Below, piece after piece: positions 5,219 to 55,060 of a DNA stretch of 64,000 bases (position 1 is the first letter of the stretch; every line of letters begins with the position of its first letter). Origin of the DNA: Egicoccus sp. AB-alg2 (GTDB taxonomy: Bacteria > Actinomycetota > Nitriliruptoria > Nitriliruptorales > Nitriliruptoraceae); contig NZ_JBGUAX010000006.1 of NCBI RefSeq assembly GCF_041821065.1, forward strand, positions 248,001 through 312,000. Reading direction: 5' to 3'. A program made the translations under genes and the position numbers. Under the pieces are notes generated by a model that was not told the origin of the DNA, ran no database searches, and saw only the letters and a program-made list of their open reading frames with translations.

Positions 5219-7567
5219 TCAGCCCTCCAGGTCGTCGGCGTCGTCGGCGGCCAGCGGGTTCACGCCGAGCTTGTCCTTGACCTTCTTCTCGATCTCGGCG
5301 GCGACGTCGACGTGCTCCTTCAGGAAGTTGCGGGCGTTCTCCTTGCCCTGCCCGAGCTGCTCGCCGTCGTAGGTGTACCAAGCACCCGCCTTGCGGATGA
5401 TGCCCTCCTCGACGCCGACGTCGATGAGCGAGCCCTCCCTGGAGATGCCCTCGCCGTAGAGGATGTCGAACTCGGCCTGCCGGAACGGCGGCGCGACCTT
5501 GTTCTTCACCACCTTGACACGCACCCGGTTGCCGACCGCGTCGGTGCCGTCCTTGAGCGTCTCGATCCGGCGCACGTCCAGGCGCACCGAACTGTAGAAC
5601 TTCAGCGCGCGCCCACCCGGGGTCGTTTCGGGCGAGCCGAACATGACGCCTACCTTTTCACGCAATTGGTTGATAAAAACAGCACATGTCTTGGACTTGC
5701 TCAACGAACCGGAGAGCTTCCGCAGCGCCTGCGACATCAGACGGGCCTGCAGGCCGACGTGGCTGTCACCCATCTCGCCCTCGATCTCCGCGCGCGGGGT
5801 GAGTGCGGCGACCGAGTCGATGACGATGAGATCGACCGCGCCGGAGCGGATCAGCATGTCTGCGATCTCCAGCGCCTGCTCGCCCGTGTCGGGCTGCGAC
5901 ACCAGCAATTCGTTGATGTCGACGCCGAGCGCCTTCGCATAAACCGGGTCGAGCGCGTGCTCGGCGTCGATGAACGCCGCGATCCCACCCGCCTTCTGGG
6001 CTTCGGCCACCGCGTGCAACGCCACGGTGGTGTTGTGGGACAGGACGCCATTGGCGAGGAAGCTGTGCGTCCCAGGCACAACGACGTCAAAGGTCGGCAC
6101 CGAACCCACCGCCTCGATCGCGGTGATCCGCTCGTAGGTGAGCGGACGTGCAGCGAGCTCGTGCAGTTGCGCCACCAGCGGGCGCGCGCTGGCTGGGACG
6201 TGCTTGGACTCGATCCACTCGAGCACGGCCAGCAGCCGGTTCGGCGAACAGTCGATGCTGCCGTCGGCCCGACCCGTGAGGTCCGTACGCCGCAGGTCGC
6301 CGATCAGCGCGTCGAGTTTCCGATCCCCACCCAACGCGTCGCGCAGGTCGAACAGCAGCTCACGGACGTGGGGCAGGTGTTCGTGACGGGACGCCGGCGA
6401 GGTACCCGGTGCCGTATCGAGGTGGCGCTCGACCTGTGCGGCCCGGCGTTGCGAGCGGAAGCCGATCTGCTCCAGGAATCGGTGCACGGCGCCCGCGCCG
6501 ACCAGGACCGTGTGGTAGTCGCGGTCGAGTTCGTCATGGTGGCGCTCGAAGCGCGTGGCCGGGATGCCCAGCCCGTACAGCAGCAGTTGAACCTGCTCGG
6601 CCAGCGTCACCGAAGCCGTGGTCAGTCCGATGCCGGGCCCCTGCTCGATCCAGCCGTCACCCTCGTACAGAGCGGACAGGAACGCGCGCTGGACCTTCGG
6701 CCCACCGGTCCGAACGGCGTGCGGGATCTCCTTGTCCGCGGAGAGACCGAAGCCGAGCCCATACTCGTCCGCGAGCCGTTTCCGGGCTGCGGTGTCGTGG
6801 ACGCAGTGCTCCTTGCCCTGGTAGGTGACGACACGGTCACGGCTGACGCCGAGGACATGCTCGAGCAGGGAGACGTACTCCTCGTAGACGTCGGGGTCGT
6901 ACGCGTTGGTGAAGTTGATGGCGTGGCGCGCGTTGTCACCCAGGGAACCCTCGGCCACCAGATAACCGAGCAGCACCGCCTCGTCCTCCGTGAGCTGGCT
7001 ACCGCCGGGTGAGGCGTCGGCACCGAACAGCGCCGACACCAACACATCGCCGTGCCGCAGCTCTGCAACTGTGCGCCAAACGATGCGTCCCCGCTCGTTA
7101 AGCACCCGGAGCGGATGGTTTGCGGTCGCCTCAACATGACGGCCCGACTCGAGCGTGACGCGCCAGACCGGCTTGCGGTTGTTGTGCGTCACGCCAGCCA
7201 TCAGCTCGAGGTTCGCCTCCTCGTTGACGAGGCGGACGCCGTAGTCGCTGACGTCCGTGACCCTGGACGTGCAGCTCGTCGGCTGATCGACGCGGAAGAA
7301 GAGCTCGTCGACCGTTTCCAGCCCGTGGTCGGTCCACACGTAGGTGCCGGCCGGCAGGCACTTGCCGGAGCTCTCCGGACCGTAGATCTCCACGACCCGG
7401 CCCTTGGGCAGGCCGCCGATGCCGAGCGCCAGGTCCAGCGACAGGGCCCCGGTCGGGATGGCGGCGACCTTGACCGCGGCCTCGTCGCCGAGCTTCATCA
7501 GCGAGCCCTTGCCGAACTGCTTCTCGATGTTGGCGAGCGCCAGGTCGAGGGCCTTGTCCTTGTCCAC
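5219..7567 (-). CDS. recA: Recombinase RecA interrupted by an in-frame intein
   Basis: RecA forms filaments on single-stranded DNA, drives strand exchange and stimulates LexA self-cleavage. The 782-residue precursor starts at a GTG at 7567 (ribosome site GGGAGG). Residues 1-69 are the N-extein, ending inside the Walker A motif GPESSGK. Residues 70-512 are an intein (6032-7360). The remaining 270 residues restart with [12 protein letters not shown] and carry the Walker B region, loop L2 (GRALKFYSS) and the usual acidic C-terminus. Spliced RecA would be 339 residues, normal for the family. Without splicing the ATP site is split and the protein should be inactive. A LexA box lies upstream. One stretch of the C-extein (5651-5689) has strikingly AT-rich codons. 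Confidence 0.97.
6032..7360 (-). mobile_element. RecA intein with LAGLIDADG homing-endonuclease domain
   Basis: It is an in-frame insertion of 443 codons between Lys and Thr of the RecA P-loop. Splicing residues are all present: Cys1 (CLPAGTYVW), block B with His82 (ATANHPL), block F ([16 protein letters not shown]), penultimate His442, terminal Asn443 and a Thr as first C-extein residue. Two LAGLIDADG helices are visible, LLGYLVAEG at about 130-138 and [10 protein letters not shown] at 227-236, with the acidic residues retained (Glu137 and Asp235). The endonuclease therefore looks intact and potentially mobile. Base composition is somewhat less GC-rich than the flanking recA. The mycobacterial RecA inteins I know of sit at other positions in the protein. 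Confidence 0.94.
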
Positions 7568-42080: not shown

Positions 42081-43574
42081 TCAGGCGGTGAGTGGATGTC
42101 GCCGTAGCGGCGGGTCCGAGGTCGCGCGGCGGCGTCCCCGTTTGACGGTGACGGTCCCGTCGACGGTCATGTCGAGTTGCCAGCGGCCTTCGGTGACCGC
42201 GGTGTGATGCCGGCGGCAGAGCGCGACCAGGTTGTGCACCACCGTGTGGCCGCCGTGTTCGCGTGGGATGACGTGGTGCAGGTCGGTCCAGGCGGCCGGC
42301 ATCCGACAGCCCGGGAACCGGCAGCCCTGATCGCGGGCCAGCACCGCCTGACGCAGCCGGGCCGGGATCGACGCGGTCGGGGCACTGATGCCCAGCACCT
42401 CGTGCCCGTCGGTCAGTACGAACTGCAGACGGCAGTCATCCGCCAGCCGCCGCAACGCCAACGGGGTCAGCGCCGGCGGCGCGCCCGGCAGCCGCCACAA
42501 CAGCCGCGCCCGCCGCGCCTGCTCGGAGTCGCCGACCAGCGCCTGGATGTCGGTGACCACCAGCATCGACGGGCGGGCCCGCACCATGGTGCCGTCGGCC
42601 CGGTGGCCGGACAGGAACACCTCGGCCAGCTTGACGAACGCATCCGCCAGCTGCCGGCCCCGCGGCCGATCGAACCCCTCGCCGAGCACGTCCGGGCCGT
42701 CGTCGTCGACGGTGTCCGGATCAGGATCGAGCGCGTCACGGGTCACGTCGCGGTCACCGGTGGGCGGTGCGGCGGCGGCTTCGAGCGCCTCCCGGATCAG
42801 CGCCCCGTCGGTGGCCGGGAACGCGAAGCTGCCGCGCACCCCGCCTTCGAAGTCGGGTTGGACGTGCAGATAGCGCCGCTCGACCCGCCGGACGCTGCGG
42901 GCCTGTTCGAGGTCTTCGCGCAGCCGGCTGGCCGCGACCCGCATGTGGTCGACCAGGTCGTCGGCCTGCAGCCGCTCGAGCTCGTCGAGATCGGCAAACC
43001 GCTGGTCCAACTCAGCCCGCAGCGCGACCGTCAACGGGCCGGCTTCGCATACGATCGCGCGGACCTGCCCCCAGCCGAGCGCACCGGCGTGGAATGCGGC
43101 CTTGACGTTGGGCATACAGGCGAGCACGTCCCGGACGGTGTGTAGGAACCGCCGGTCCCCGAACGTGGTCTTGGACTGCAACGCCAGCAGCCCTTCCAAC
43201 GGCAGACCGGCCCGGCGTTCGGACAGCGAGCCGTCTTCGATGCGGTCGACCAGCTCCACCACCGCGGCCTGGCAGGTGTCAGCGGTGGCGAGCAGTTCCA
43301 GCAGTCCGGCCAGCTCCCCGTTACCAGTCACGGCCCGGTCGGCCGCCAACACCCGGACCCGCTCCACCGCGGCCGCCGCCTGCCGGATCGCCAGGCGCAG
43401 GTCCCCACCATCGGTGTGACCGGCGTCGGGCGCAGGAGCAACTTCGGTCGTGTAGTCCGGGGCGTGTTCGCGGGCGATGCTGTGGTGCCGCCGGACTGCT
43501 CGATACCCCGCGCGAGACGTGGTCGCGGGCACCGCATTGCGGGTGTTGGGCGGGGTGGGAGTGGGGCTGAACAT
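42081..43574 (-). CDS. DUF222 / HNH endonuclease domain protein
   Basis: The 497-residue protein has an N-terminal DUF222 region (about 60-330) and a C-terminal HNH nuclease domain: CRFPGCRMPAAWTDLHHVIP, then HGGHTVVHNLVALCRRHH, with the paired Cys and the catalytic HH. DUF222-HNH genes are abundant and often multicopy in actinobacteria. Some behave like selfish elements, but their role is unsettled. The ATG at 43574 is 7 nt from a TAGAAT box, implying a leaderless transcript. No inverted-repeat ends or duplicated target are visible. Confidence 0.88.
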   Translation of the reverse strand: MFSPTPTPPNTRNAVPATTSRAGYRAVRRHHSIAREHAPDYTTEVAPAPDAGHTDGGDLRLAIRQAAAAVERVRVLAADRAVTGNGELAGLLELLATADTCQAAVVELVDRIEDGSLSERRAGLPLEGLLALQSKTTFGDRRFLHTVRDVLACMPNVKAAFHAGALGWGQVRAIVCEAGPLTVALRAELDQRFADLDELERLQADDLVDHMRVAASRLREDLEQARSVRRVERRYLHVQPDFEGGVRGSFAFPATDGALIREALEAAAAPPTGDRDVTRDALDPDPDTVDDDGPDVLGEGFDRPRGRQLADAFVKLAEVFLSGHRADGTMVRARPSMLVVTDIQALVGDSEQARRARLLWRLPGAPPALTPLALRRLADDCRLQFVLTDGHEVLGISAPTASIPARLRQAVLARDQGCRFPGCRMPAAWTDLHHVIPREHGGHTVVHNLVALCRRHHTAVTEGRWQLDMTVDGTVTVKRGRRRATSDPPLRRHPLTA

Positions 43575-44964: not shown

Positions 44965-47136
44965 TCACTCGCCGCCAGCCCGCACCTGCTCGCCATCGGC
45001 CGGCGTCCCTGACGGGTCATTGCCGTCGGCGGTCGGCGTCCCTGACTGGTCATTGCCATCGGCGGTCCGGGCATGCGGCTCCGCGGCAGGAGCCGGCTCC
45101 TCCGCGGTCGGATCCGCGGCAGCGCTCGGCGGCTCGGTTGCGGCGCCGGGTGTGTCGTCGGTCGATGCCTCGTCGCTCGGCAGCTCGTCGCCAGCGGCGG
45201 GGCTCGCCGGCGCCTCGGGCTGCGGCTCGGCGGCAACTGCCTGCGGCTCGGCGGTCTCGGCTGGCGGCTCGGCGCCGGCCGCACGCTCTCCCGCCGGTCC
45301 GCCCGCGTCCGGGGTCGCCGGCGCTTCCGTAGCCGCCGCGGGCTCCGGTGCCTGCTCACCCGTGACGGGGGTCGCCTGCTCGGCTCGGGTCGTCGACGAC
45401 TCCTCGGCCGCGGGCGCCGCGTCGGACGCCGGCTCGGCACCCGCCGTCGGCGACTCCTGGTCCGAAGGCGCCGCGTCCGACGCCTGCTCGGCGGCAGCGA
45501 TGGCGTGCGGTGCCTCGGGGTGCTCGAGCTGGTCGGCCGGATTGGCGACGACCAGGACCTCGCCGCCCGGCTCGGCGGCGTCGCCGGCGTCGGCATCGTC
45601 GGACCGCCGGCGCTTGGTCTCGCCGGACGCCCACTCGAGGGCCTTCTGGTGCCGATCGTCCGGGGTGATCCCGGCCGCCACCATGCGGGCGTACACCTCG
45701 CGGGCCGGCTCGTGCTGGCCCTTGCGGGCGTGGGCCCACATCAGCTCGCGGTAGGTCGGCTCGTCGACCTGCACGCCCGCGTCGCCCAGCGACGCGAGCA
45801 GGTCGTCGGCGGTCGCCAGGTCCCCGGCCCGGATCAGGCCGCCCAGCAGCTTCGAGGCGTCGGCGCTGGCCGGCAGGATCTTGTGCGACAGCATGTGCTG
45901 CAGCAAGGCGATCGCCTCGTCCGCGCGCTTGGCCGCGACCAGCCCGTTGAGCAGCGAGCCGTAGTGGCGTCCGTGCGTGAGCGTGCCCGAGGCCCGCAGC
46001 CGCTCGAGCAGGTCGCGTGCCTCGTCCAGCCGCTTGGCCCGAACCAGCCGCTCGACCAGGTCGCGCGCGGTGCGGCGGTCGGCCGGCACACCGCGGGCGG
46101 TCACGAGCTCGAACAGCGCCAGGCCCGTGTCCAGCTCACCGGCCTGCAGGTGGCGGCCGATGACGTCGGCCGCCTTCTGCGGCGGGACGGGGACGCCGAG
46201 GATCAGCATCCAGTCGATGACGCCGCTGGCGGCTGCGACCTGGTTCGCCGCGAGGCTGACGTCGATCAGGCCCTCGAGGTTCTCGCCCGACGGGATGCGC
46301 CCGTCCTGGGCGAGGCCGAGCGCGACGGCCCAGGCGCCATCGGCGTCGCCGGCGGCGATGCGGGCGCGCAGCACGGCGTTGCGGTGGAAGCTGGACGGTC
46401 GCGTGCCGGCCTGCTCCATCGCCGTCAGGGCCTGGTCGGCCGCCTCGGCGTCGCCGGCCTTGGCGTAGGCCAGCAGGAGTTCGGTGTGGACGTCGCCGCG
46501 CAGCTCGACCCCGGCCTCGCTCATGCGCTGCAGCAGGTCGAGGGCACGGTCGGTGTGGCCGGCCCGGGCGACCATCGCGACCAGCTCGGTGGCCAGTCGC
46601 GGCGAGGGCGCGCGGCCGACCTGCAGCATGAGGTCGACGACGGTGCGCGTGTCCTTGATGGCCCGCCGCTCGAGGCAGTCGCGCAGCAGACGCTCGTAGT
46701 CCGCATCCGCGGCCGCCTGCCCCCGCTGCGCCATCTGCCGGACCACGGCTCGTGCGGCCGGGTAGCGGCCGGCGGCGAGGTAGACCTGCAGCACCGCCGA
46801 CGCGTGGTCGGCGTCGGGTTCGACACCCTCGCGGTGGAGGTCGTCGAGCATCCCGAGGGCCTCGTCGGTGCGGCCCGCGCGCCCGGTCGCGATGGCGACG
46901 TCCCAGCGCGTGCCCGCCGGCACCTCCACCCCGGCCGCCTGCATGCCCGCCAGGACCTCGCGGGCGCCGGCCAGGTCCCTGGCGTCGAGATGCGCCTTGA
47001 GCAGGAGCTGGAAGTGCTCCTCGGACGGCGCCACCTCGCGCTGCTGCATCGAGGCGAAGACCTGCCGCATCATCCGGAGATCGCCGGAGAAGCGGCGCAT
47101 CGCGTCGAGGTACTTGTCGCTGGACTCGTACGACAT
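44965..47136 (-). CDS. Pentatricopeptide repeat (PPR) protein with 13 tandem motifs
   Basis: It encodes 723 residues from the ATG at 47136 (GGGAGG 8 nt upstream). Residues 39-493 consist of thirteen consecutive 35-residue motifs. The conserved Gly at motif position 31 recurs at 69, 104, 139, 174, 209, 244, 279, 314, 349, 384, 454 and 489 (Lys at 419), an exact 35-residue period. Motifs read like EAADQALTAMEQAGTRPS and EPAREVYARMVAAGITPD, the PPR helix-turn-helix signature; TPR repeats would be 34 long with other residues. PPR proteins bind single-stranded RNA in organelles, and bacterial examples are rare. The last 220 residues are Ala/Pro/Glu-rich and disordered. There is no signal peptide. 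It is divergent from RNase Z. Confidence 0.9.
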   Translation of the reverse strand: MSYESSDKYLDAMRRFSGDLRMMRQVFASMQQREVAPSEEHFQLLLKAHLDARDLAGAREVLAGMQAAGVEVPAGTRWDVAIATGRAGRTDEALGMLDDLHREGVEPDADHASAVLQVYLAAGRYPAARAVVRQMAQRGQAAADADYERLLRDCLERRAIKDTRTVVDLMLQVGRAPSPRLATELVAMVARAGHTDRALDLLQRMSEAGVELRGDVHTELLLAYAKAGDAEAADQALTAMEQAGTRPSSFHRNAVLRARIAAGDADGAWAVALGLAQDGRIPSGENLEGLIDVSLAANQVAAASGVIDWMLILGVPVPPQKAADVIGRHLQAGELDTGLALFELVTARGVPADRRTARDLVERLVRAKRLDEARDLLERLRASGTLTHGRHYGSLLNGLVAAKRADEAIALLQHMLSHKILPASADASKLLGGLIRAGDLATADDLLASLGDAGVQVDEPTYRELMWAHARKGQHEPAREVYARMVAAGITPDDRHQKALEWASGETKRRRSDDADAGDAAEPGGEVLVVANPADQLEHPEAPHAIAAAEQASDAAPSDQESPTAGAEPASDAAPAAEESSTTRAEQATPVTGEQAPEPAAATEAPATPDAGGPAGERAAGAEPPAETAEPQAVAAEPQPEAPASPAAGDELPSDEASTDDTPGAATEPPSAAADPTAEEPAPAAEPHARTADGNDQSGTPTADGNDPSGTPADGEQVRAGGE
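45001..45066 (-). repeat. Two tandem 33-bp units in the PPR-protein tail
   Basis: Units at 45001-45033 and 45034-45066 differ at only two bases and encode an 11-residue repeat of the type ADGNDxSGTPT near the C-terminus of the PPR protein. A partial copy precedes the first. Confidence 0.85.
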
Positions 47137-47363: not shown

Positions 47364-48290
47364 GTGTCGATCCGGGAGCTGGTGGTACTGGGCACGGCGA
47401 GCCAGGTGCCGACCCGGACCCGCAACCACAACGGCTACGTGCTGCTGTTCGACGACCTCGGCATCCTGTTCGACCCCGGGGAGGGCACGCAACGCCAGTT
47501 CTCGTTGGCCGGGCTGACGATGGCGCGCATCCACCACGTCTGCATCACGCATGCCCACGGCGACCACTGCCTCGGACTGCCGGGCGTGCTGCAGCGCCGC
47601 GCCGTGGACGGGCTGACCACGCCGGTCACGGTCCACTTCCCCGCGGGCGCCGCCGAGACGATTGCGCGCCTGCGGCACGCCACCCCGTTCGACGACACGG
47701 CCCCGGTGACCTTGCGTGCCGTCGACGACGGTGGCGCGACCCCGATGGACCTGGGCGGGGTGGTGCTGCACGCCGCGCCGCTCGTCCACGGCGAGCCGAC
47801 CCTGGGCTGGCGGGTCCAGGAGCCCGACGGCTGGCGCCTGCTACCGGACCGGTTGGAGGCCGTCGGCGTGCCGCCGCCGTTGCGGCGCCGCCTCACGACC
47901 CACGGCGAGGTGGACGTCGACGGCCGGCAGGTGCGGGTCGAGGAGGTCGGCGTCCGCCGGCCCGGCCAGTCCATGGCGTTCGTGATGGACACGCGCGACT
48001 GCGACGGTGCCCGCCGACTGGCGCAGGACGTCGACCTGCTGGTGATCGAGGCGACGTTCCTGGACGACCAACGGGCGCTCGCCGAGGAAGTGGGGCACCT
48101 CACCGCGGGACAGGCGGCCCGTCTGGCGCGTGAGTGCGGCGCCCGACGGGTCGTGCTGACACATTTCTCACAGCGCTACCCCGACCTGGCCGGCCATCTC
48201 GAGGAGGCGCGGGCGCACGCGCCGGGGCTGGACCTGACGGTCGCGCAGGACCTGATGCGGATCCCGCTGCCACCGCGCCGGGCGGAGTGA
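47364..48290 (+). CDS. rnz: Ribonuclease Z
   Basis: RNase Z cuts tRNA precursors at the 3' side before CCA addition. The 308-residue product begins VSIRELVVLGTASQVPTRTR, the usual N-terminus of the family, with a GGGAGG site 4 nt before the GTG at 47364. The zinc motif is THAHGDHC (H63, H65, D67, H68), and VIEATFLDD and LTHFSQRY supply the distal ligands. A GTG at 47325 would add 13 residues; a TACGGT box 9 nt before it leaves room for a leaderless longer form. The 227 bp between this gene and the divergent PPR gene must contain both promoters. Confidence 0.92.
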   Translation: MSIRELVVLGTASQVPTRTRNHNGYVLLFDDLGILFDPGEGTQRQFSLAGLTMARIHHVCITHAHGDHCLGLPGVLQRRAVDGLTTPVTVHFPAGAAETIARLRHATPFDDTAPVTLRAVDDGGATPMDLGGVVLHAAPLVHGEPTLGWRVQEPDGWRLLPDRLEAVGVPPPLRRRLTTHGEVDVDGRQVRVEEVGVRRPGQSMAFVMDTRDCDGARRLAQDVDLLVIEATFLDDQRALAEEVGHLTAGQAARLARECGARRVVLTHFSQRYPDLAGHLEEARAHAPGLDLTVAQDLMRIPLPPRRAE

Positions 48291-48300
48291 TCCCGCCCCG

Positions 48301-49353
48301 TCACCCGAGCAGCGACTCCACGAGCTCCATGCGCCGGGCGGTGTCACGCTCGTAGGCGGCGAGACGGCCGGCGTCCTGGGCGCGCGCGACCCGATGTTCG
48401 TGCCAGGCCAGCATCTGGACGTGGGCCAGCGCGAACTGCTCCTCCAACGCGTAGCCGTCGCTGCCCCGCCCGACGCGATCACCGAACGTGTCGCGGAAGA
48501 CCGCCAGCATCTGTTCGGGGTGGCGGGCCTGCAGGTGGAGCTTGGCGAGGTCGAAGGCGACCGGCAGTTCCCCGGCATGCTCCCAGTCGATGAGGACGAC
48601 CCGCTCCATGTCGCCGACCAGCACGATGTTCGAGCCGACGATGTCGCCGTGGCCGAGCCCGACCTCCAGGTGCGCGTCGCGGTCGAACAGCGTCTGCACC
48701 CGCTGGCGCACGGTGGCGGAGACGGGCAGGTGCCCGACGGCGGCTGCCCACCGCTCGGGCAGGCGGTCGCTGGTGACCTCCGAGAGCCGCTTGCGGGCCA
48801 GCCCCGCCGAGCGGTGCAGGTGGTCGAGCGCGGCGGCGACGTGCGCCCCGGCCTGCTGCACCTCGCCGCGGTCGGCCGGGTGGCGCCCGTCGAGGCACTC
48901 TTCGCTGAGGAAGCCCATCTTCGCCCGCTTGTCGACGCCCACCTCGAACAGGCGGGGTGCGACCTCGGGTGCGTGCTGCGCGACCACCCTGCGGGCCCGC
49001 GCCTCGCGTACGACGCCGCGCATGTGGGCACCCTGGAACCGCTGGACGCGCAGCGTGGTCGCCGGCGCGTCCGCCGACGCGTAGAAGGCACGCAGGCGTA
49101 GCTCCGCGGCGACGTCGAACTTGCCGAACTGCACGACGTCGGCGGCACTGCGGGCATGCAGCACCGCGTCCACCGGCGCCGCGTCCTCGGCGTCGAGCAG
49201 CAGGGCGGGCAGTCCGTCGAAGCCGGCGTCCTCGGCCCGTGCCGTCGCGCCCCGGATGCGGAAGGCGCGCCGAGGCCGCAGGCGGCGACCGAACGCCCGG
49301 CCCTCGAGCCGTGCCAGCAGACGCAGGGACGTCTGCCACCGATCGCGCTTCAC
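48301..49353 (-). CDS. APH/choline kinase-like phosphotransferase
   Basis: The 350-residue protein starts at a GTG (GGGGGAG 6 nt upstream). Its C-terminal half has the kinase catalytic loop LGHGDIVGSN and the metal-binding IDWEHAGELPVAFDLAKL motif of aminoglycoside phosphotransferases and choline kinases. The N-terminal lobe (about 60-140) contains VVQFGKFDVAAELRLRAFYA, in which a Lys could bind ATP. The substrate is unknown; resistance should not be assumed. It is convergent with RNase Z (10-bp gap). Confidence 0.8.
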   Translation of the reverse strand: MKRDRWQTSLRLLARLEGRAFGRRLRPRRAFRIRGATARAEDAGFDGLPALLLDAEDAAPVDAVLHARSAADVVQFGKFDVAAELRLRAFYASADAPATTLRVQRFQGAHMRGVVREARARRVVAQHAPEVAPRLFEVGVDKRAKMGFLSEECLDGRHPADRGEVQQAGAHVAAALDHLHRSAGLARKRLSEVTSDRLPERWAAAVGHLPVSATVRQRVQTLFDRDAHLEVGLGHGDIVGSNIVLVGDMERVVLIDWEHAGELPVAFDLAKLHLQARHPEQMLAVFRDTFGDRVGRGSDGYALEEQFALAHVQMLAWHEHRVARAQDAGRLAAYERDTARRMELVESLLG

Positions 49354-49501: not shown

Positions 49502-50287
49502 TCAGAGCAGGTGCTCGAGGCCGACGACCAGGCCGTCGAGGCCGGCGACCTCGCGGCAGGCCAGGAGCACGCCCGGCATGAACGACGTGCGGTCGATCGA
49601 GTCGTGCCGGATCGTGAGCGTCTGGCCGGCGCCGCCGAAGATGACCTCCTGGTTGGCCACGATTCCCGGCAGCCGCACGCTGTGGACCCGGACGTCCGCG
49701 TGGACCGCGCCCCGGGCGCCGGGATGCCGGTCGTCGCCCAGGGGCGCCTCCGGGACCTCACGGCGGGCCTGGGCGATCAACTCGGCGGTGCGCAGCGCGG
49801 TGCCCGACGGCGCGTCGACCTTCCGGTCGTGGTGCAGTTCGATGATCTCCACGTGCGGCAGGTGCTTGGCGGCCTCGGCCGCGAACTGCATCAGCAGGAC
49901 CGCGCCGATGGCGAAGTTCGGGGCCACCAGGGCGTTGGCACGGCCGGCCGCGGCGGTCTCGCGGGCCGCGGCCAGGTCCTCGTCCGAGATGCCGGTCGCC
50001 CCGACGACGGCGTGCACGTCGTGGTCGAGGAGCCAGCGCAGGTTCGCGCCGACCGCGGCGGGGCCGGTGAACTCCACGGCGACGTCGCAGTCCGCATCGA
50101 CGATGGCGTCGAGGTCGGCCGCGACGGTGAGGTCGGTGTCGATGCCGGCCACGTCGCGCAGCGACGCACCGCCGTGATGGGGGTCCACGGCCGCGACGAG
50201 CCGCAGGTCGTCGGTGCCGCTGACGGCCCGGCAGACCTCGGACCCCATTCTCCCGGCCGCGCCGATGACCCCTACCCGCACCGTCAC
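49502..50287 (-). CDS. dapB: 4-hydroxy-tetrahydrodipicolinate reductase DapB
   Basis: DapB reduces the DapA product using NAD(P)H in the diaminopimelate/lysine pathway. The 261-residue protein has the nucleotide-binding loop GVIGAAGRMGSEV, the catalytic region ELHHDRKVDAPSGTAL and the FxIGA motif APNFAIGAVL. The GTG at 50287 has AGAAGGAG 6 nt upstream. It follows the M16 peptidase gene after 126 bp. dapA lies 14 kb away instead of two genes away as in other actinobacteria. Confidence 0.96.
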   Translation of the reverse strand: MTVRVGVIGAAGRMGSEVCRAVSGTDDLRLVAAVDPHHGGASLRDVAGIDTDLTVAADLDAIVDADCDVAVEFTGPAAVGANLRWLLDHDVHAVVGATGISDEDLAAARETAAAGRANALVAPNFAIGAVLLMQFAAEAAKHLPHVEIIELHHDRKVDAPSGTALRTAELIAQARREVPEAPLGDDRHPGARGAVHADVRVHSVRLPGIVANQEVIFGGAGQTLTIRHDSIDRTSFMPGVLLACREVAGLDGLVVGLEHLL

Positions 50288-51773: not shown

Positions 51774-54404
51774 TCAGTCGCGCTCACGGCTGCGGCTGCG
51801 GGTCCGCGTGCGGGTCCGCTCGCCGCCGTCGCCGCGCTCGTTGCCGTCGCCGCGCTCACGACGCTCGCCGCGGTCACGGTCGCGGCCACGCTCGCGGTCC
51901 CCGTCGCGGTCGCGGTCACGACGCTCGTCGCGGTCCCGGCCACGCTCGCGGTCACCGTCGCGGTCACGGTCGCGACGCTCGTCGCGGTCCCGGCCACGCT
52001 CGCGGCGCTCGCCGCGGTCACGGTCGCGGTCACGGCCACCACGATCACCACGGTCACGGTCACGACGCTCACCGTTGTCGCGGTCGCGGTCACGACCGCC
52101 GCGGCCACGCTCGCGGCCGCCGCGCGACTCCTCGGCGTCCTCGCGCTCGGCGTCGTCCGACTTGCCGCGGTCGTCGCCGCCGGCACGCTCGTCCTCGGCG
52201 CCACCGGCGCGTTCGCCGACGTACTCGAGCTTGAACTTGCGCCCGCCGTCGAGGACGTCCTTGACCTCGACGAGCACCTGCTCGCCGACCTCGACCGCCT
52301 CCTCGGCGTGGTTGAGGCGCTTGCCGGCCATCTTCGACAGCTCGGAGATGTGCAGCAGGCCGTCGGTGCCCGGCGTGAGGTTCACGAAGGCGCCGAAGTC
52401 GACCGTCTTGACCACGGTGGCGTGGTAGCGCTCGCCGACCTCGGGCAGCTGCGGGTTCGCGATCGCGTTGATGCGGTCGAGGGCGTCCTGCGCCTGCTCG
52501 CGCGAGTTGGCGTAGATCTTGACGACGCCGCGGCCCTCTTCCTCGTCGACGTCGATCTGGGCGCCGGTGACCTCCACCAGTTCCTTGATGATCGCGCCGC
52601 GCGGGCCGATGACCGCACCGATCTTGTCCTGCGGGATGTTGACGATCTCCACGCGCGGGGCGGTCTCGGCCACCTCGTCGCGCGGCTCGGCGATCGCCTC
52701 GTTCATGACCTCGAGGATCTGCAGGCGCGCGTCACGGGCCTGCAGCAGCGCGTCCTGGAGCACCTGCGCCGGGATGCCGGCGAGCTTGGTGTCCAGCTGC
52801 AGGGCGGTGATGAAATTCTCCGGCCCGGCGACCTTGAAGTCCATGTCGCCGAAGAAGTCCTCGACGCCCTGGATGTCGGTGAGGGTCGTGTACTTGCCGT
52901 TCTCGTAGACCAGGCCCATGGCGATGCCGGCGACCTGGGCGTGGACCGGCACGCCACCGTCCATCAGCGCCATGGAGGCGGCGCAGACCGAACCCATCGA
53001 GGTCGAGCCGTTGGAGCTCAGGACGTCCGAGACGACCCGCATCGCGTAGGGCCACTCGCCCTGGTCGGGCAGCACCGGGATGAGCGCCCGCTCGGCCAGC
53101 GCACCGTGGCCGATCTCGCGGCGCTTGGGGCTGCCGACGCGGCCGGCCTCACCGGTCGAGTAGGGCGGCATGTTGTAGTGGTGGAGGAAGAGCTTCTCCT
53201 CCTCGGGGTCCAGCGTGTCCAGCCGCTGGCCCTCGCGCTGGGTGCCCAGGGCGAGGACGGACAGGACCTGGGTTTCGCCGCGCTGGAACAGCGCCGAGCC
53301 GTGGGTCTTGGGCAGCACGCCGACCTGGGCCGACACCTCGCGCAGGTCCGCGACCCCGCGGCCGTCGACCCGGAAGCCGTCGTCGACGATGAGCTGACGC
53401 ACGACCTTCTTCTCGGTCGACCGGAACGCCTCGGCGGCCTGCTTGCCGCGGGCCTCCTCGTCGAGGTCGGCCGGGCCGTTCTCCGTGACGTGCGCGATGG
53501 TCTCCTGGCGGACCACGTCGAGCTGGTCGTTGCGCTCGGACTTGGTCACCTCGGCGTCGCGGTAGATCGCGGTGACGCGCTCGGCGGCGAAGTCGAAGAC
53601 CTGCTCGAAGACCTCGTCGGTGTAGTCGAGGAAGAGCGGGAACTCGCCGGCGTCACGGGCGCCGACCTGGTCGACGAACGCCTGCTGCGCCTCGCACAGC
53701 TGCTTGATGATCGGCTTGACGTCCTCGATGGCCTGACCGACGACCTGCTCGGTCGGGGCCGGCGCGCCCATCTCCACCTTCGTCCAGGCGTCGGGGGTCG
53801 CCTCGGCCTCGATCATGAGGATGGCGACCTCGCCGTCGTCCTCGACACGGCCGGAGATGACCATGTTGAAGACCGCCTCCTCCTGGAGCTCCTCGAAGGA
53901 GGGGAAGGCGATCCAGGAGCCGTCACGCAGCATCGCGTAACGGACCGCGGCGACCGGCCCGGCGAACGGCAGGCCCGACAGCATCGTCGACAGCGACGAG
54001 CCGTTCATCGCGACGACGTCGTAGGGGTCGAACTGGATGGTCTGCACGACCGTGTTGACGACCTGCACCTCGTTGCGCAGCCCCTCGGCGAAGGTGGGGC
54101 GCAGTGGGCGGTCGGTCAGGCGGCAGACGAGGATGGCGTTCTCCGACGGCCGGCCCTCGCGCTTGAAGAACGAGCCGGGGATGCGGCCGTTGGCGTACAT
54201 CCGCTCCTCGACCTCGATGGTGAGGGGGAAGAACGGCAGGAAGTCCTTCGGCTGCTTGGACGCCGTGGTCGTGGTGAGGACCTTGGTGTCGCCGATGGAG
54301 GTGACGACGGCGCCGCCGGCCTGCTGGGCCAGCGTGCCCGCCTCGAAGGTGATGGTCTTGCCGTCGATCTCGACGGCGTGTTCGTACGTTCCGAGCGTGC
54401 CCAC
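51774..54404 (-). CDS. pnp: Polynucleotide phosphorylase with long Arg/Asp-rich tail
   Basis: PNPase degrades RNA phosphorolytically from the 3' end. The 876-residue product has two RNase PH domains (about 1-215 and 320-540), an alpha-helical linker, a KH domain (VNIPQDKIGAVIGPRGAIIK) and an S1 domain (VGERYHATVVKTVDFGAFVN) ending near 725. The final 150 residues are almost only Arg, Asp, Glu and Gly, built from repeats such as RGRDRDERRDRDRDGDRE. Such a tail is much longer than in model PNPases and may bind RNA or form assemblies. The GTG at 54404 has GAGGAGG 5 nt upstream. rpsO lies upstream. Confidence 0.96.
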   Translation of the reverse strand: MGTLGTYEHAVEIDGKTITFEAGTLAQQAGGAVVTSIGDTKVLTTTTASKQPKDFLPFFPLTIEVEERMYANGRIPGSFFKREGRPSENAILVCRLTDRPLRPTFAEGLRNEVQVVNTVVQTIQFDPYDVVAMNGSSLSTMLSGLPFAGPVAAVRYAMLRDGSWIAFPSFEELQEEAVFNMVISGRVEDDGEVAILMIEAEATPDAWTKVEMGAPAPTEQVVGQAIEDVKPIIKQLCEAQQAFVDQVGARDAGEFPLFLDYTDEVFEQVFDFAAERVTAIYRDAEVTKSERNDQLDVVRQETIAHVTENGPADLDEEARGKQAAEAFRSTEKKVVRQLIVDDGFRVDGRGVADLREVSAQVGVLPKTHGSALFQRGETQVLSVLALGTQREGQRLDTLDPEEEKLFLHHYNMPPYSTGEAGRVGSPKRREIGHGALAERALIPVLPDQGEWPYAMRVVSDVLSSNGSTSMGSVCAASMALMDGGVPVHAQVAGIAMGLVYENGKYTTLTDIQGVEDFFGDMDFKVAGPENFITALQLDTKLAGIPAQVLQDALLQARDARLQILEVMNEAIAEPRDEVAETAPRVEIVNIPQDKIGAVIGPRGAIIKELVEVTGAQIDVDEEEGRGVVKIYANSREQAQDALDRINAIANPQLPEVGERYHATVVKTVDFGAFVNLTPGTDGLLHISELSKMAGKRLNHAEEAVEVGEQVLVEVKDVLDGGRKFKLEYVGERAGGAEDERAGGDDRGKSDDAEREDAEESRGGRERGRGGRDRDRDNGERRDRDRGDRGGRDRDRDRGERRERGRDRDERRDRDRDGDRERGRDRDERRDRDRDGDRERGRDRDRGERRERGDGNERGDGGERTRTRTRSRSRERD
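51884..52000 (-). repeat. Tandem 54-bp units coding for the PNPase tail
   Basis: Copies begin at 51884, 51938 and 51992 (the third partial), each encoding the 18-residue unit RGRDRDERRDRDRDGDRE or part of it. Shorter degenerate repeats of the same kind fill about 51780-52140. Confidence 0.82.
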
Positions 54405-54650: not shown

Positions 54651-54923
54651 TCAGCGGCGCAGTTCGAGCTCCGCGATGAGCGCCCGGTAGCGCTCGATGT
54701 CCTTGTCACGCAGGTAGTTCAGCAGCCGCCGGCGCTGACCGACCAGCATCAGCAGCCCGCGCCGCGAGTGGTGGTCGTGCTTGTGCTCCTTGAGGTGCTC
54801 GGTCAGGTGGCTGATGCGCTTGGTCAACAGCGCGACCTGGACCTCGGGGGAGCCGGTGTCGCCCTCGGCGCGGGCGAACTTGGCGATGATCTCCTGCTTG
54901 TCGTCGGGAAGGACGGCAGCCAA
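54651..54923 (-). CDS. rpsO: Ribosomal protein S15
   Basis: S15 binds 16S rRNA early in small-subunit assembly. The 90-residue product begins at a TTG at 54923 (AGGAG 6 nt upstream), giving the normal family length. An open frame further upstream lacks S15 sequence. Conserved parts are [40 protein letters not shown] and the end [20 protein letters not shown]. It precedes pnp as in most bacteria. A promoter and a hairpin lie at the start of its leader. Confidence 0.95.
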
Positions 54924-55060
54924 CGGTTCTCCTGTCGTGGTCGGGCCCTGCGTCGCCGGGTGGCGAACGTGTCGCCGCGGGGGATCTGCGAGGTGACGGC
55001 GCCACGAAGCGCCAGTACGTCGATCAGGGAACCCCGACACCCGAACGGGCACGGTGAAAG

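Follow-up and report, generated by a model that had tools for sequence, protein, structure and literature searches.

A pentatricopeptide repeat protein conserved across one deep actinobacterial order and encoded near the rpsO-pnp-M16-dapB cluster

Pentatricopeptide repeat (PPR) proteins have been described as essentially eukaryotic. A 2010 paper counted 12 bacterial PPR proteins known earlier, in two species (PMC2824747), and a 2013 paper spoke of the family as absent from bacteria (PMC4029402). The window analysed here, a 64,000 nucleotide stretch of the Egicoccus sp. AB-alg2 genome, contains a gene that was picked out from the bare sequence as coding for a bacterial PPR protein of thirteen motifs. 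The questions raised by this locus are whether the protein does belong to the family, how widely it is found, and whether its motifs could read RNA in the way that plant PPR motifs do. The features of the gene and its neighbours are listed in Table 1.

Table 1. Position of the PPR gene, the parts of its product and the neighbouring genes in the window
Feature	Coordinates	Strand	Remarks
PPR protein gene	44965..47136	-	723 aa, stop codon included in coordinates; ATG at 47136
N-terminal degenerate hairpin (motif 0)	47023..47127	-	residues 4-38; Y9, A12, V26 and M30 invariant order-wide
Array of 13 PPR motifs	45658..47022	-	residues 39-493
Motif 7	46288..46392	-	residues 249-283
Motifs 7-13, conserved half	45658..46392	-	residues 249-493
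C-terminal cap	45604..45657	-	residues 494-511, DDRHQKALEWASGETKRR; most conserved stretch order-wide
Disordered acidic Ala/Pro/Glu-rich tail	44968..45600	-	residues 513-723
HNH endonuclease-domain protein	42081-43574	-	near the PPR gene
Ribonuclease Z	47367..48290	+	divergent neighbour of the PPR gene
APH-family kinase gene	48301-49353	-	between dapB and ribonuclease Z
dapB	49502..50287	-	
PNPase (pnp)	51774..54404	-	member of the conserved rpsO-pnp-M16-dapB cluster
Ribosomal protein S15 (rpsO)	54651..55052	-	

Repeat register, profiles and predicted fold

The window protein is a PPR protein by profile, register and predicted fold. Glycine occupies position 31 in 12 of the 13 tandem, degenerate 35-residue motifs (residues 69, 104, 139, 174, 209, 244, 279, 314, 349, 384, 454 and 489), with Lys at residue 419 as the sole break in the series, exactly as the original prediction had placed them. 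In 20,000 shuffles of the array the best phase held at most eight Gly. When periods from 25 to 45 were compared, 35 was the only one strongly preferred (z = 18.5), and the array did not have the 34-residue spacing of the tetratricopeptide repeat (TPR) proteins (z = -0.8).

The original prediction had proposed that PPR profiles be set against those of TPR and SEL1, and PPR came out far ahead. The protein matched the Pfam models PPR_2 (1.1e-26), PPR_long (2.8e-26) and PPR (1.8e-22) and the NCBIfam PPR profile TIGR00756 (8.2e-37), whereas the best TPR models of Pfam reached only about 9e-5, under the cut-off, and the SEL1 profile gave no match in Pfam at E values up to 1. Two composition-preserving shuffles of the protein matched nothing in Pfam. 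Some orthologues do pass TPR cut-offs, but the best PPR model was ahead in every orthologue scanned, including those. No other domain was matched in Pfam or NCBIfam, nuclease, SMR, DYW and methyltransferase domains included. The closest solved structures by sequence were designed PPR proteins (6e-64), and the best natural one was maize PPR10 (about 1e-30).

An AlphaFold2 model, built on an alignment of 16 orthologues (pLDDT 89.3), forms one unbroken solenoid in which 13 hairpins of 35 residues are capped at both ends, N-terminally by a degenerate hairpin and C-terminally by one helix. The first of these (residues 4-38) and the last helix (residues 494-504) are additional to the thirteen motifs recognised originally. 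The two-helix pattern read from the sequence of each motif is found throughout the model, with the antiparallel pairs stacked into the superhelix that structure prediction was expected to reveal. The top Foldseek match was PPR10 (5e-15), followed by designed PPRs, PPR subunits of the plastid RNA polymerase and mitoribosomal PPRs. Using VIA-align, the model scored Z 22.8 against a designed PPR, whereas the top-scoring TPR superhelix reached about 14. Full-length superpositions gave a large rmsd, which is expected because the solenoid is flexible. We regard the PPR fold as virtually certain.

Distribution and chromosomal setting

The gene is present as a single copy in its own genome, and orthologues with 35-88% identity to the window protein were found in 27 of the 31 sampled genomes of the order, almost always in one copy. 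In the class sample, these were 26 of 30 genomes of its own family together with the one genome from the second family of the order, and no orthologue was detected in the 30 genomes from the rest of the class. Among the 246 genomes of the phylum sample the gene was present in 11, all members of the order, and absent from the other 235. A scan of genome contigs, which took in bacterial and archaeal species widely and detects close relatives only, yielded 15 loci, 14 assigned to Nitriliruptoraceae and one to Actinomycetota. In the samples searched, the protein therefore occurs, within its phylum, in a single deep order of actinobacteria; the original prediction had suggested a survey of homologues in deep actinobacteria. 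We found no paper linking Nitriliruptor with pentatricopeptide proteins.

The gene has been retained in genomes of 1.7 Mb (completeness about 96-97%). Two of the four own-family genomes that do not carry it (G048 and G059) are both of the sampled members of genus g17, making a true loss possible in that genus; the other two may reflect assembly gaps. Order specificity and vertical inheritance are strongly supported. A mobile or phage origin was considered and rejected, as no relatives were found in viral contigs or plasmids and there was no PHROG or PADLOC match. In the second-family genome (G007), a broken partial duplicate (L052, bases 5384-6109, minus strand) adjoins the intact copy. A further candidate for a second match (L051) was judged by eye to resemble an aminopeptidase.

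In the window, rpsO, pnp, an M16 peptidase gene and dapB are consecutive, and ThyX and RNase J are encoded further on. The conserved site of the PPR gene is right after dapB in this cluster, and the dapB/pnp synteny is seen in both families. This link, like the order-wide conservation, could not be seen from the one sequence on which the original prediction was made. In the divergent genera dapB and the PPR gene come in that order on one strand, mostly separated by about 60-160 nt and once by 20 nt or less, and in one genome from these genera a longer gap holds an intervening open reading frame (ORF). In most close genera the ribonuclease Z gene lies between the two on the opposite strand. Of the 15 contig loci, 14 have it beside the PPR gene and one is truncated by the end of its contig; two own-family loci (L038 and L040) have dapB and the PPR gene with no detectable ribonuclease Z gene between them. 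A core association with ribonuclease Z was rejected, as the PPR gene follows dapB without it in the divergent genera; its presence beside the PPR gene is a later insertion.

This bears on whether the protein works in tRNA processing, either as a partner of ribonuclease Z or, like PRORP, in place of RNase P. PPR_long, the second-best Pfam model, represents the PRORP PPR region, and most close genera have ribonuclease Z as the divergent neighbour, but the two genes are not adjacent in the divergent genera and a nuclease domain was not matched. Furthermore, an RNase P RNA gene was found in the genome (256.8 bits), and replacement of RNase P by the PPR protein is therefore excluded in practice. 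Overall, a role of this kind is very unlikely.

The outgroup genomes read have the pnp-M16-dapB cluster but lack the PPR gene, so adjacency alone is no proof of a shared role. The ORFs at the outgroup site were considered as a possible PPR or TPR ancestor and discarded, since by eye they resembled a cysteinyl-tRNA synthetase, a GAF-like protein, a subtilase and an SLH protein. Scans for promoters, terminators and Rfam families found nothing, and the APH-family kinase gene was not detected in the orthologous PPR loci. A relative of the HNH protein is also found near the PPR gene in L052. The PNPase of the window ends in a disordered-looking tail of about 135 residues in which Arg, Asp and Gly are abundant (RGG/RD-like), and the PNPases of relatives and outgroups also end in charged tails, of varying length.

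Groove residues and possible roles

The original prediction also held that the array could bind a single-stranded RNA of about 13 nt, one nucleotide per motif. The perfect register of the thirteen motifs is compatible with this, but the residues that would read the bases are not. In plant PPR proteins, 64% of motifs have a common code pair at positions 5 and 35 (PMC3420917), compared with one of 13 in the window protein (binomial P = 4e-5), namely motif 7 (N253/S283), and none to two of 13 in each of 26 orthologues. In motif 7, Asn at position 5 is invariant across the order and position 35 is Ser or Thr. Motif 12 carries SD, a further pair discussed in PMC4837458, where the roles of a hydrophobic residue at position 2 and of Lys at position 13 are also described. 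In the window protein, charged and small residues prevail over hydrophobic ones at position 2 of motifs 1 to 13 (E, G, D, A, R, D, F, E, Q, R, R, A, P), and position 13 is basic in six of 13 motifs and Lys once, which differs from the P-class pattern. Nor does the protein have code pairs in most of its motifs, as one-base-per-motif recognition of the P-class type would entail. As most motifs do not have the plant base-reading residues, the target is not predictable by the plant code. Together with position 5 of motifs 1-6, which is unconstrained (see below), this makes the plant-like reading of about 13 nt highly improbable. From the original prediction, the PPR identity, the bacterial setting and the restriction to a single order stand, and the 13-nt target falls.

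Conservation along the protein was examined in an alignment of 27 sequences, which share 35-88% identity with the window protein. Hardly any gaps interrupt the array, and the sole inserted columns within it are a few residues close to where motifs 5 and 6 meet, present in the orthologues of the divergent genus g9. Outside the helix cores the invariant residues include N253 (motif 7, position 5) and R463 and D493 (motif 13, positions 5 and 35), along with R495, H496, W502, G505, T507 and R509 of the cap, where the conserved and partly basic pattern is RH..A..WA.G.T.R. Position 5 of motifs 7-13 (N-E-A-R-G-S-R) is mostly non-canonical, yet it is constrained in motifs 7, 8, 10, 11 and 13; in motifs 1-6 it drifts. 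In motifs 7-13 its mean entropy is 0.84 versus 1.63 for the exposed helix-B positions (p = 0.011), and in motifs 1-6 it is 2.12 versus 2.00, that is, there is no extra conservation. These statistics are modest because sequence weighting leaves only about six effective sequences. A strong constraint on the C-terminal half of the protein is strongly supported. The orthologue tails range from 16 to 286 residues, some being cut by contig ends, and all are acidic. The array itself is slightly acidic (net charge about -1.4 per 100 residues), as are many other proteins of the window to an equal or greater degree.

With so few canonical residues, the protein may bind RNA weakly, in a different manner, or not at all. 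One alternative is that the 35-residue PPR-type hairpins form a TPR-like scaffold for protein-protein contacts that does not bind RNA. The mostly non-canonical residues at positions 5 and 35, the weak TPR profile matches, stronger in some orthologues, and the acidity of array and tail would all suit such a scaffold. However, all orthologues scanned score higher with the best PPR model than with the best TPR model, sequence comparison places PPRs nearest among solved structures, PPR10 was first in Foldseek, and the groove positions are conserved in motifs 7-13, including the invariant Asn of motif 7. We consider the scaffold rather unlikely, and think it somewhat more likely than not that the protein binds RNA.

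A second alternative is a ribosome-associated factor, comparable to the PPRs of the plant mitoribosome, that would bind rRNA by its shape and not through a code. The mitoribosomal proteins mL102/rPPR5 were among the best natural matches in both sequence and fold, rpsO belongs to the same cluster, and a non-canonical groove and a conserved, partly basic cap would be in keeping with it. Against this, the ribosomal PPRs are no closer to the window protein than are PPR10 or PAP2, and the pnp cluster also occurs without the PPR gene. Such a role is a minority possibility.

The explanation that we favour, by a modest degree of confidence, is a housekeeping PPR protein found throughout the order, gained once and binding RNA with its C-terminal half. 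The gene would have been acquired at or before the base of the order, landing behind dapB in the rpsO-pnp-M16-dapB cluster, and maintained from then on in one copy with a housekeeping function. The groove of motifs 7-13 and the cap may bind a single conserved RNA, or else rRNA, tRNA or another structured RNA, with motifs 0-6 acting mainly as a scaffold and the acidic tail possibly serving as a solubility or partner segment. A housekeeping RNA-binding factor is the most likely identity, and it could function in constitutive RNA maturation or protection, as organellar PPRs do in shielding RNA ends from exonucleases. In the chloroplast, where PNPase and RNase J are exonucleases, PPRs protect RNA ends (PMC5897788), and both enzymes are encoded in the window with the PPR gene. 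By analogy, the protein might protect RNA ends against one of them, though we think this unlikely. Tentatively, the order may have relied on a PPR protein of its own for an important RNA step throughout its history, independently of organelles, with a non-plant mode of recognition in the groove (N, E, R, G and R at position 5 of motifs 7, 8, 10, 11 and 13, plus the cap).

Comparison with known PPR systems

As a vertically inherited, order-wide bacterial case, the gene allows the job of a PPR protein to be asked in a free-living cell with its own PNPase, RNase J and RNase P, and it raises the question of RNA recognition by PPR domains outside the plant code. The bacterial PPR-domain proteins of Ralstonia, Rhodobacter and Legionella longbeachae (PMC2824747), compared here by description only, are a handful from single species, whereas the window gene is common to a whole order and occupies one site.

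Like the P-class organellar PPRs of plants, for which maize PPR10 is the example, the window protein has tandem 35-residue motifs, no other domain and, as predicted, the same solenoid. It differs in being bacterial, in its largely non-canonical code residues and in its acidic disordered tail, and the genomes of the order have one such gene rather than the hundreds of plants. The designed consensus proteins dPPR-U8N2 and cPPR-Telo1 are the closest by sequence and by structure comparison, but they were built for base reading and the window protein departs from them at positions 2, 5, 13 and 35. It resembles PRORP in the PPR_long match and in the structure of the PPR domain; however, no NYN metallonuclease domain was matched after the PPR region, where a low-complexity acidic tail extends past residue 512. 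In the same way, the absence of a C-terminal SMR, DYW or methyltransferase match sets it apart from the PPR-SMR, PPR-DYW and PPR-TGM fusions. With mL102/rPPR5, which are subunits of organellar ribosomes, it shares a long PPR solenoid, a likeness of sequence and predicted fold.
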